Both the position numbers and the translations under genes were made by a program. A model generated the notes under the pieces. The model did not search any database, had not been told where the DNA came from, and saw only the letters and a list, made by a program, of their open reading frames with translations. A stretch of DNA of 46,247 nucleotides, taken from Saccharicrinis sp. Its GTDB lineage: Bacteria > Bacteroidota > Bacteroidia > Bacteroidales > Marinilabiliaceae. The stretch is taken from the NCBI GenBank assembly GCA_024635585.1, contig JAGXIP010000259.1:1-46247 (forward strand), written 5' to 3'. Below are positions 15,476-19,100 of the stretch, in pieces. Numbering within the stretch: position 1 is the stretch's first letter; every line of letters starts with the position of its first letter.

Positions 15476-15904
15476 TTATTCTATTATTTCTTTTATCGTG
15501 AACACAAATGTTTTTTTGAGCATGGGTGTGTACATCTTAACCACAAAAAAATAAGGGATTAAAATGGCCAATGACGCGATGCCCGCTATGCCTTCGCTTT
15601 TTGTTATTCCGAATACGACAAATAAGGTGATGAATACCAATACAAAAGGATAGATGTAGGCAATTAAAGAGGCTTTTAAACCAAGTGATTTTTGCCCTTG
15701 GATAATTACTCTTTTACCCACGGATAAATCGCTAAAACCAAAAGGGTTAACGTCAATTATTTTTTCTTGCATATCAGCAGCGGTACAAGCGCCCTTCGCA
15801 TGGCACGATGCACAAGCCGATTCGCTTAAAATACGTACTTTAATCTGGCTTTGCTCAACCGCCTCAATATATCCCGTATGCTCTACAAAGTTCAATTCCG
15901 ACAT
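15476..15904 (-). CDS. rseC: SoxR-reducing system protein RseC-like
   Basis: 142 aa, CASCHAKGAC motif, two TM segments, heads the rnf operon. Confidence 0.88.
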   Translation of the reverse strand: MSELNFVEHTGYIEAVEQSQIKVRILSESACASCHAKGACTAADMQEKIIDVNPFGFSDLSVGKRVIIQGQKSLGLKASLIAYIYPFVLVFITLFVVFGITKSEGIAGIASLAILIPYFFVVKMYTPMLKKTFVFTIKEIIE

Positions 15905-16188: not shown

Positions 16189-16296
16189 ATACGACCACGA
16201 ATGATATAAATAAAGCGAATAAAACTGCTACGCAGTTATGGTTTACCTGCGGTAATCATATTCGCATCATTCGTTTTATTCGTGGTTGAAATAGAG
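16189..16296. repeat. Imperfect palindromic repeat, copy 1
   Basis: atacgaccacgaatgatataaataaagcgaat...catattcgcatcattcgttttattcgtggttgaaatagag; ACCACGAAT...ATTCGTGGT stem; about 93% identical to 16807..16913. Confidence 0.9.
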
Positions 16297-16328
16297 CGAC
16301 AATTTTTAATGTATTATATGGTAAGTGT

Positions 16329-16709
16329 TCAGTATGATTTGATAATCCTTTGGGTATCTAATTCGGGTTTGCCAAAATTAATAAGTATTCCTAAGGTCAG
16401 TTGCGAGGCTTTTAGGTAATTGAATACTTGTGATTGATTAATGACATCTAATTCGCGAACAGCTTTCAGTTCTACGATTATTTTATCGTAGCAAATAAAA
16501 TCGGCATTAAAACCTTTTTTTAGCCGTTCACCTCTATAATTAATTCTTAATGGGGCTTCCCTAATGTGTGGGATGCTGCGATATTTTAACTCGATTTCGA
16601 ATGCTTCTTGGTAAACAGACTCTACAAAACCACATCCTAATTCGTTGTGCACATGGATAGCCGCGCCAACAATAGCATACGACTCTTTCTCAAAAATAAT
16701 TTTAGACAT
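16329..16709 (-). CDS. GxxExxY family protein (PD-(D/E)XK nuclease-like)
   Basis: 126 aa; GCGFVESVYQEAFEIELKYRSI contains GxxExxY; ADFICYDKIIVELKAV resembles a D-x(n)-ExK core. Confidence 0.93.
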   Translation of the reverse strand: MSKIIFEKESYAIVGAAIHVHNELGCGFVESVYQEAFEIELKYRSIPHIREAPLRINYRGERLKKGFNADFICYDKIIVELKAVRELDVINQSQVFNYLKASQLTLGILINFGKPELDTQRIIKSY

Positions 16710-16806
16710 AGACTCAAAGTTTGGATAAAAAAACTCGGATAATACTCTTTATCATGGAAGATAAGGAATTTACATCAGTCAAACCATTTTTTTTTTGACC
16801 ATAAAA

Positions 16807-16913
16807 ATACGACCACGAATGATACGAATAGAGCGAATAGAACTGCTGCGCAGTTATATTTACCTGCGGTAATCATATTCGCATCATTCGTTTTATTCGT
16901 GGTTGAAAAAGAG
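16807..16913. repeat. Imperfect palindromic repeat, copy 2
   Basis: atacgaccacgaatgatacgaatagagcgaat...attcgcatcattcgttttattcgtggttgaaaaagag; same orientation as copy 1. Confidence 0.9.
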
Positions 16914-17000: not shown

Positions 17001-19100
17001 TTAACTGATGAGGCTCCAGTTGAGTTTTTGGCGGGCCAGTTTGGTAAGCTGGCGGTTCAGGATTTGGTTTTCGGGTTTTTCGAGGGTGGGGTCAGCGTCG
17101 AGGATGGCGTTGGCCACGTTGCGGGCATGTTGCAATAGTTGCGTATCGCGGGTGAGGTTGGCTATCTTCAGGTCAAAGGGCAAACCACTCTGTTGGGTGC
17201 CTTCCAGGTCCCCAGGACCGCGCAGCTTCATGTCGGCCTCGGCTATTTCAAAGCCGTCGTTGGTATCCACCATGATGCTCATGCGCTTTTTGCTGTCTTC
17301 GCCCAGCTTGTGACCTGTCATCAGAATGCAGTAACTCTGCTCGGCTCCCCGGCCCACCCGTCCGCGCAACTGATGCAGCTGTGAGAGGCCAAAGCGCTCG
17401 GCACTCTCGATAACCATTACGGAGGCGTTGGGCACGTTAACACCAACTTCAATCACCGTGGTGGCTACCAAAATATTTGCTCTACCGCTGGCAAACTCTA
17501 GCATGGCGGCATCTTTTTCGGCAGGTTTCATTTTGCCATGAACCATGGAGGTTGTGTATTCAGGAAAAGCAGATTGCATATATTGCAATCCTTCGGCCAG
17601 GTTTTTATAATCCATCTTTTCCGATTCCTCTATCAATGGATACACCACATAAATCTGTCGTCCTTTTTCAATCTCGACTCTGATAAACTGATTGAGGTTA
17701 TTGCGGCGATTATGAAAATAATGTCTGGTTTGGATGGGTTTACGCCCCGGAGGAAGCTCATCGATAACCGACACATCGAGGTCGCCATAAACCGTCATGG
17801 CCAAGGTGCGGGGAATAGGTGTAGCTGTCATCACCAACACATGCGGTGGTATGGTATTTTTTTTCCAAAGCCGGGCGCGTTGGGCTACTCCAAAACGGTG
17901 CTGCTCATCTATGATGACTAAACCCAGGTTTTTGAATTTCACCACATCTTCCAGGAGAGCATGTGTGCCGATGAGTATTTGCAATTCACCCGATTGTAGT
18001 TCGGCATGAATTATTTCCCGCTCTTTTTTTTTGCTCGAACCGGTCAGTAGCTTCACATTTAAATCCATCCCTTGTAACAACTCAATGATGGAATCAAAAT
18101 GCTGCGAGGCGAGTATTTCGGTAGGTGCCATCAAACAAGCCTGAAAGCTATTGTCTAAGGCAATGAGCATCACCATTAATGCCACCATGGTTTTGCCACT
18201 GCCCACGTCGCCCTGTAGCAGACGGTTCATCTGCCGTCCTGAACCCACATCGTGCCTTATTTCGCGGATAACACGTTTTTGTGCCCCGGTAAGCTCAAAA
18301 GGCAGGTTATGATGAAAAAAATGGTTGAAGTAATCGCCAACAGTGGCGAAAATATGCCCTTTGATATTTTGGTTTCGCTGGGTTTTTAGTTTGAGTATGC
18401 TGAGCTGAATGTAAAAGAGTTCCTCAAACTTTAAGCGAAACTGAGCCTGTTGCAATACTTGCGAATCGGCCGGAAAATGAACCGTGCGCAATGCCTTGTC
18501 CAGTATCATCAATTTGTACTGCTGAACGATATAGGATGGCAGGCTTTCGGATATGGCGCCCTGAAACGAAAGGAAGATGTTTTGCTGCATCTTTTGTATG
18601 ACCTTAGAGTTCAGGTAGCTATTTTTCATCTTCTCAGTGGTATTGTAAAAAGCTTGCAAGCCAGATGTGATCTTTGGCTTGCTGCTGTCCACCTTTTCCA
18701 TTTCGGGATGAACGATGTTATAGCTTTGGTTGAATTTGCTGGGTTTGCCAAAGATGATGTATTCTGCTTTGGGGTCGAGCCCAGTTTTTATTTGTTTAAT
18801 AAATTTAAACCACACCAGCTCTATCACACCTGTATCGTCGGCAAATTTGGCTACCAAACGTTGCGATCGTCCTTGTCCGACGGTGTTGAGCGCAACCACT
18901 TTGCCCTGCAATTGAATGTGCGACGAGGTGCTGCTTATCTCCCGTATCTTAAAAGTTCGGCTTCTAGCCACATATTTCTAAGGAAAATGGTACAGCAAAT
19001 CCTCGTACGACTGAATTTTGAGTTCATTCTTAAGCAGCTCGGCTCTTTTGGAACCAACACTGGGTAAATAAGTTATATCTTTTGTGGACAGTTCCGACAT
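17001..19100 (-). pseudogene. recG: ATP-dependent DNA helicase RecG interrupted by an in-frame TAG at codon 41 (18978..18980)
   Basis: The 656-aa ORF (RLLQGDVGSGKTMVAL, DEQHRFGVAQR, MTATPIPRT) continues upstream in the same frame as MSELSTKDITYLPSVGSKRAELLKNELKIQSYEDLLYHFP*KYVARSRTFKIREI, which is a RecG-like N-terminus. Confidence 0.85.

Follow-up and report, generated by a model that had tools for sequence, protein, structure and literature searches.

A stretch of 46,247 nucleotides from Saccharicrinis sp. (contig JAGXIP010000259.1; hereafter "the window", from the genome denoted G000) contains a small GxxExxY gene bracketed by two copies of a palindromic repeat, and thus raises the question of whether the gene and the repeats belong together and, if so, as what kind of element. 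The preliminary description of the locus proposed a minimal mobile or repeat-maintaining module that is comparable in its logic to RAYT/REP pairs but relies on a different enzyme family. The features of the locus are compiled in Table 1.

Table 1. Features of the palindrome-flanked GxxExxY gene and its neighbours (positions in the window).
Feature	Position	Strand	Remarks
Left neighbour, presumably rseC-like	15476..15904	-	Same strand as GxxExxY gene; conserved site anchor
618-bp unit (one palindrome plus gene)	16189..16806		In G000; lacking at this position in G002 and G006
Palindrome copy 1	16189..16296		Downstream of gene; arms 16194-16221 and 16259-16286 with iterated CGAAT cores
Copy 1 inner hairpins	16223-16237; 16243-16255		AACTGC-TAC-GCAGTT; TTACC-TGC-GGTAA
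GxxExxY gene	16329..16709	-	126 aa; PD-(D/E)XK nuclease by profile match
Palindrome copy 2	16807..16913		Upstream of gene; arms 16812-16839 and 16876-16903 with CGAAT every 9 bp
Copy 2 inner hairpin	16841-16855
Right neighbour, recG helicase	17001..18971	-	Same strand as GxxExxY gene; conserved site anchor

The two palindromes, which start with ACCACGAAT and measure 107-108 bp, are present as described and exhibit an identity of 90% in their first 51 nt and of 98% in their last 55 nt, the two blocks being offset by one base. Both are also capable of folding on themselves: the complementarity of the arms amounts to 79% in copy 1 and 82% in copy 2, and the predicted folds of single-stranded DNA are far better than those of dinucleotide shuffles (z = -4.6 and -8.1, respectively; 0/200 shuffles as good). 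The reported 9-bp periodicity of CGAAT is exact in copy 2, but the left arm of copy 1 retains only a degraded version of its middle unit. No gene other than the one for the GxxExxY protein is located between the palindromes, in agreement with the initial reading. The whole genome harbors one further clear palindrome, a solo copy (G000:C79:2379-2477), and three additional GxxExxY genes, whose flanks contain iterated repeats of other cores, namely CACGGATTAACACGGATT at two of the genes and ACCACAGAGTATCGCAGAG at the remaining one. These different cores first indicated that the association concerns the protein family rather than one particular sequence.

Profile searches assigned the window protein to PF13366 (PDDEXK_3; E=5.8e-39, 133.5 bits, cut-off 22) and TIGR04256 (E=6.1e-41, 139.4 bits, cut-off 35), which are its only family matches, and a Y1/HuH transposase was not among them. 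The active site (E30, D70, E80-x-K82, Q94) is intact and invariant across 21 diverse homologues. A sequence search of the PDB retrieved no solved relative, and the structure comparison of an AF2 model (mean pLDDT 96.2) identified SSO0001 (TM 0.6, E 5e-5), which we take to be Cas4-like, as the nearest fold, followed by lambda-type exonucleases. The modelled fold is hence of the Cas4/lambda-exonuclease type with intact catalytic residues, and nuclease activity is predicted. The fold and the active site are shared with Cas4, lambda-exonuclease and RecB-like PD-(D/E)XK nucleases, from which the protein differs by its length of only 126 aa, the lack of an adjoining partner system and the presence of dispersed palindromes. 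None of the PADLOC anti-phage defence models matched (0 families), a phage collection contained no match to the window protein, and GxxExxY genes were detected in only 8 plasmid records and in one viral contig. A GxxExxY protein is also annotated in the algal virus CpV-BQ1 (PMC12085832). In the family to which the window belongs, a single genome contains up to 14 copies. GxxExxY proteins are widespread and multi-copy, without an assigned function, and the open-access papers searched mention their name only twice, in passing.

The preliminary description had proposed a search for enrichment of palindromes around GxxExxY genes in other genomes. In 61 genomes of the same order (draft genomes, with gene starts set by rule), these genes are indeed mostly located between arms. 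A motif-free test, in which the 300 bp upstream were locally aligned with the reverse complement of the 300 bp downstream and the best alignment had to score at least 30, recovered inverted flanking arms for 74/94 GxxExxY genes. The corresponding fractions are 12.5% for 160 control ORFs from the same loci and 12% for mismatched pairs of flanks, a difference with p about 1e-25 (p-values are only indicative because the flank tests reuse related loci). A strict detector, which required exact 5-mer iteration together with an inverted counterpart, recovered just 19 of 92 genes and was dropped; it missed most genes because the cores vary within the arms, and the motif-free test and a degenerate core were used instead. 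Self-matches of flank 5-mers are enriched 3.2, 4.1 and 5.6-fold at lags of 8, 9 and 10, with harmonics near 18-20 and no rise at lags 5-7 or 12-15. Chains of at least three degenerate cores spaced by 9-11 bp occur on 70/188 gene sides, but only in 27/369 windows taken at a distance within the same loci and in 1/72 windows elsewhere in the window contig, and no enrichment is seen for spacings of 12-14 bp (1/188 gene sides) or 6-7 bp. In 60/75 genes (17 expected) one 5-mer core is common to the left and the right arm, and across loci the core is fixed and the four spacer bases between the cores are variable. Two complete palindromes, as in the window, did not prove to be the standard layout, since many elements have a single arm per side. 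A second set of 80 GxGFLE-type loci (about eight of them from genomes of the first set) represents Bacteroidota, Planctomycetota, Acidobacteriota, Chloroflexi, Verrucomicrobia, Spirochaetes, Cloacimonadota, Myxococcota, Ignavibacteria and Lentisphaerae; here, 54/73 testable genes passed the arm test, compared with 19% of mismatched pairs.

CGAAT itself is not a general signal, because the core sequence differs by protein subfamily. We compared the final base of the core (...AT or ...AG) with the type of the protein (GxGFxE or GPGLLE). GxGFLE-type proteins are associated with AT cores (CGAAT, CAGAT) and GPGLLE-type proteins with AG cores (CAAAG, CAGAG); the respective table (35/1/3/41; Fisher p = 5e-18) shows concordance for 76 of 80 callable genes. 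Genome composition is ruled out as the cause, since 0/20000 label shuffles within genomes reached the observed concordance. The three GPGLLE genes with AT cores exhibit a common LES[ST]Y variant and group together on the protein tree. On the tree of the first set the core changes 4 times, versus at least 12 changes in within-genome shuffles, and on that of a larger set of 141 genes 7 times, versus at least 29 in free shuffles. The core classes were picked after inspection of the loci, which is why the second, many-phyla set matters: 68/71 callable genes of its GxGFLE-type proteins have AT cores, as predicted. A third subtype, GNGFQE, occurs at few loci with apparent AGGATT/AGATT cores (L119, L121, L127, L129, L133).

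The flanks of GxxExxY genes are thus inverted arms in which a short word recurs with roughly the pitch of the DNA helix, and each protein subfamily goes with a different word. As judged from these comparisons, the gene and its arms are a single unit, both by sequence and by descent, even across phyla. Their joint change makes them look like one self-contained element, and the most plausible explanation, with a probability of roughly two in three, is a small element of ~450-600 bp whose nuclease recognises its own arms and whose derivatives are the gene-less palindromes. The co-variation of gene and core could in part reflect plain linkage by descent; the protein nevertheless likely reads its own arms, because neutral linked DNA would not keep a protein-matched core across phyla. 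Y1_Tnp genes are present in 51/61 genomes, and the palindromes might belong to such a RAYT system with an incidental GxxExxY association, but the palindromes of the 20 Y1_Tnp genes sampled are of another kind and non-iterated, with iterated chains on 0/39 sides, which leaves this explanation with a probability close to nil. A RAYT origin of the arms was rejected on the basis of the latter count. The REP-like palindromes of the Y1_Tnp genes themselves (L179-L198) are exemplified by GCCTGAAGGC.

The comparison of related genomes provides insight into the occupancy of the sites. Between recG and rseC, the two closest relatives G002 and G006 (RecG fragment with 94% identity) contain one palindrome and no gene. 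Compared with them, G000 has an extra palindrome plus the gene, together 617-618 bp; the breakpoints lie inside direct repeats, which makes the exact phase of the 618-bp unit arbitrary. A GxxExxY gene is also present at this site in G005 and G007, and G004 has neither gene nor palindrome. The second example is the mutA|mutB site, which we surveyed in 50 genomes of the family. It is empty in seven genomes (7-19 bp), occupied in thirteen by a GxxExxY gene with AG-type arms (about 457-486 bp), and reduced to arms in G011 and G062 (121 and 123 bp) and in G004 (92 bp), a comparison that at such distance is unpolarised with respect to gain or loss. The arms-only genomes G011 and G062 are congeneric with the filled genomes G029, G061 and G063. 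Empty sites are confined to other genera, with junctions too diverged to read and no duplication evident. About twenty further genomes carry at mutA|mutB a four-helix-bundle gene of the S23 family in its own arms.

Site occupancy also bears on the idea that the arms are operators or mRNA stems, which control a non-mobile, self-repressing GxxExxY gene. Such a function would be compatible with arms that directly adjoin the gene on both sides and with a core that tracks the protein, but it is distinctly unlikely given that arms also occur alone, without any gene, that they lie on both sides and not upstream only, and that the occupancy of the sites differs between related genomes. Host sites of GxxExxY elements recur in distant lineages. 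The element directly follows the apparent purH stop codon in two phyla (L261, L276; Gemmataceae, Acidobacteria) and the gmd|fcl site is used in two orders (L031, L122), the names purH and gmd|fcl having been read by eye from the translation. In Sphingomonas, the gene between fabD and fabG (L317:1455-1920) has very regular arms, the right one of which overlaps its 3' end.

Gene-less palindromes are numerous in some genomes, with 99 pattern hits in G027, two copies of which align over about 150 bp, documenting that palindromes without a gene multiply. Within 2 kb of a GxxExxY gene we found 4/40 hits in G009 (0.3% expected) and 0/9 in G020, and in repeat-rich genomes the majority of the CGAAT palindromes thus lie away from such a gene. 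Many loci without any enrichment near GxxExxY genes, the finding that would have spoken against the proposed module, were thus seen only in part: solo palindromes abound, but most GxxExxY genes have arms. The solo copies of G016 were considered as a free MITE family, which was rejected because they are passengers of a MITE-like repeat. This dispersed repeat of ~275 bp (L134-L153) has CTAGTGC/GCACTAG ends and the CGAAT palindrome inside. Gene copies within one genome are diverged, and pairs with more than 85% identity are exclusively local duplications, which argues against a bursting transposon and leaves recent transposition unsupported. Recent unlinked transposition was sought among 97 genes and none was found, and target-site duplications were likewise looked for and none was recognised. 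The module postulated in the preliminary description hence holds insofar as the gene is paired with its own palindromes well beyond the window locus, but its mobility is putative.

The orientation of the gene is strongly biased, since 105/112 genes flanked by same-strand genes are co-directional with them (p = 1.5e-23), which may reflect selection for expression or be a sign of action at the RNA level. S23 genes are known from intervening sequences of 23S rRNA, and GxxExxY elements could be RNA-level elements of this kind, in which the arms of the transcript pair around the gene and are cut, so that the insert is tolerated inside operons. The co-direction, the good folding of the strands and the presence of S23-family genes with their own iterated arms at the same mutA|mutB site are consistent with this scenario. 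We regard it as the main rival to the preferred reading, but nevertheless as unlikely: Rfam yielded no match, the predicted fold of copy 1 leaves the spacers between the cores unpaired, variable spacers and a fixed core are more in keeping with a repeated protein site than with a stem, the nearest folds are primarily those of DNA nucleases, and co-direction could also stem from selection for expression or against antisense transcription. S23 (TIGR02436) genes in inverted arms were observed at L399-L428, with mutA|mutB examples at L387 and L359, and in a sample of 25 loci the arms iterate every 7 bp (lags 7, 14, 21). Both systems consist of a small gene inside iterated inverted arms that is able to occupy mutA|mutB; they differ in the unrelated proteins (PD-(D/E)XK versus four-helix bundle) and in the period of the arms (9-10 versus 7 bp).

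A different context is provided by arrays in Marinilabilia (L077, G029:C4:18000-36000; L101, G011:C19) that are located between a polysaccharide-export ABC permease and its ATPase. They comprise 2-5 GxxExxY genes, PIN pairs, HEPN/MNT pairs, zeta-like and GIY-YIG genes, which are separated by palindromes and permuted in their order between genomes. These arrays resemble integron cassettes with small genes between imperfect palindromes, and the palindromes could be generic integron-like recombination sites, with GxxExxY travelling as a passenger alongside toxin-antitoxin genes and further small ones. However, most GxxExxY genes stand alone between host genes, outside arrays, the palindromes consist of iterated cores, and the core sequence follows the GxxExxY protein itself, which makes this alternative highly improbable.

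Among known systems, the population behaviour of the elements is most like that of REP/RAYT. In both cases a low-copy, diverged gene is found with its own cognate palindromes, and gene-less palindromes are dispersed, as for REP/REPIN and RAYT (TnpA-REP). The proposed analogy in logic is supported by the arm test, the periodicity, the match of core and protein, and the sharing of the core between left and right arms. The gene of REP/RAYT systems is a Y1/HuH transposase with a HuH motif, and the foot of the REP hairpin exhibits a GTAG-type tetranucleotide (PMC6006769). The GxxExxY enzyme, in contrast, is an unrelated PD-(D/E)XK protein, the repeat design is different, with 5-mers iterated at 8-10 bp instead of one short hairpin, and the RAYT genes of the same genomes have other repeats. 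Inverted terminal arms around one gene and gene-less internal-deletion derivatives (G011, G062) are reminiscent of MITEs and insertion sequences, but a transposase is lacking, with GxxExxY as the only gene, the terminal arms are iterated and not simple TIRs, and neither a target-site duplication nor unlinked near-identical copies were seen. A description of the GxxExxY-arm pairing was not found in the open-access papers searched under the name, the family or the repeat strings.

With respect to the preferred reading of one small element with a nuclease that recognises its own arms, we infer both this recognition and the movement of the element from the comparison of sequences. The PD-(D/E)XK protein would bind the words repeated in its own arms, with several molecules probably lined up on one face of the DNA or seated on the extruded hairpin, and might then nick or trim the DNA there. 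This would drive a slow spread of the element between genes or its maintenance there, chiefly within operons and in the operon's direction. Recombination between direct copies or internal deletion may have left gene-less palindromes such as the single one in the relatives of G000, which could then multiply alone in a MITE/REPIN-like manner. More tentatively, and with somewhat less than even confidence, the GxxExxY-arm element may exemplify a minimal arm-gene-arm class without a transposase, in which a single small protein co-evolves with arms whose sites are iterated at helical pitch and by means of these arms spreads or persists between operon genes across bacteria, be it a GxxExxY nuclease with 9-10-bp arms or an S23 four-helix bundle with 7-bp arms.

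The cognate arms provide a candidate substrate for each GxxExxY protein, and the specificity is testable by swaps of arms and proteins between subfamilies. Such an element would account for dispersed iterated palindromes across many phyla, and it would establish a link to the S23 genes, whose occurrence in ribosomal intervening sequences has likewise long been puzzling.
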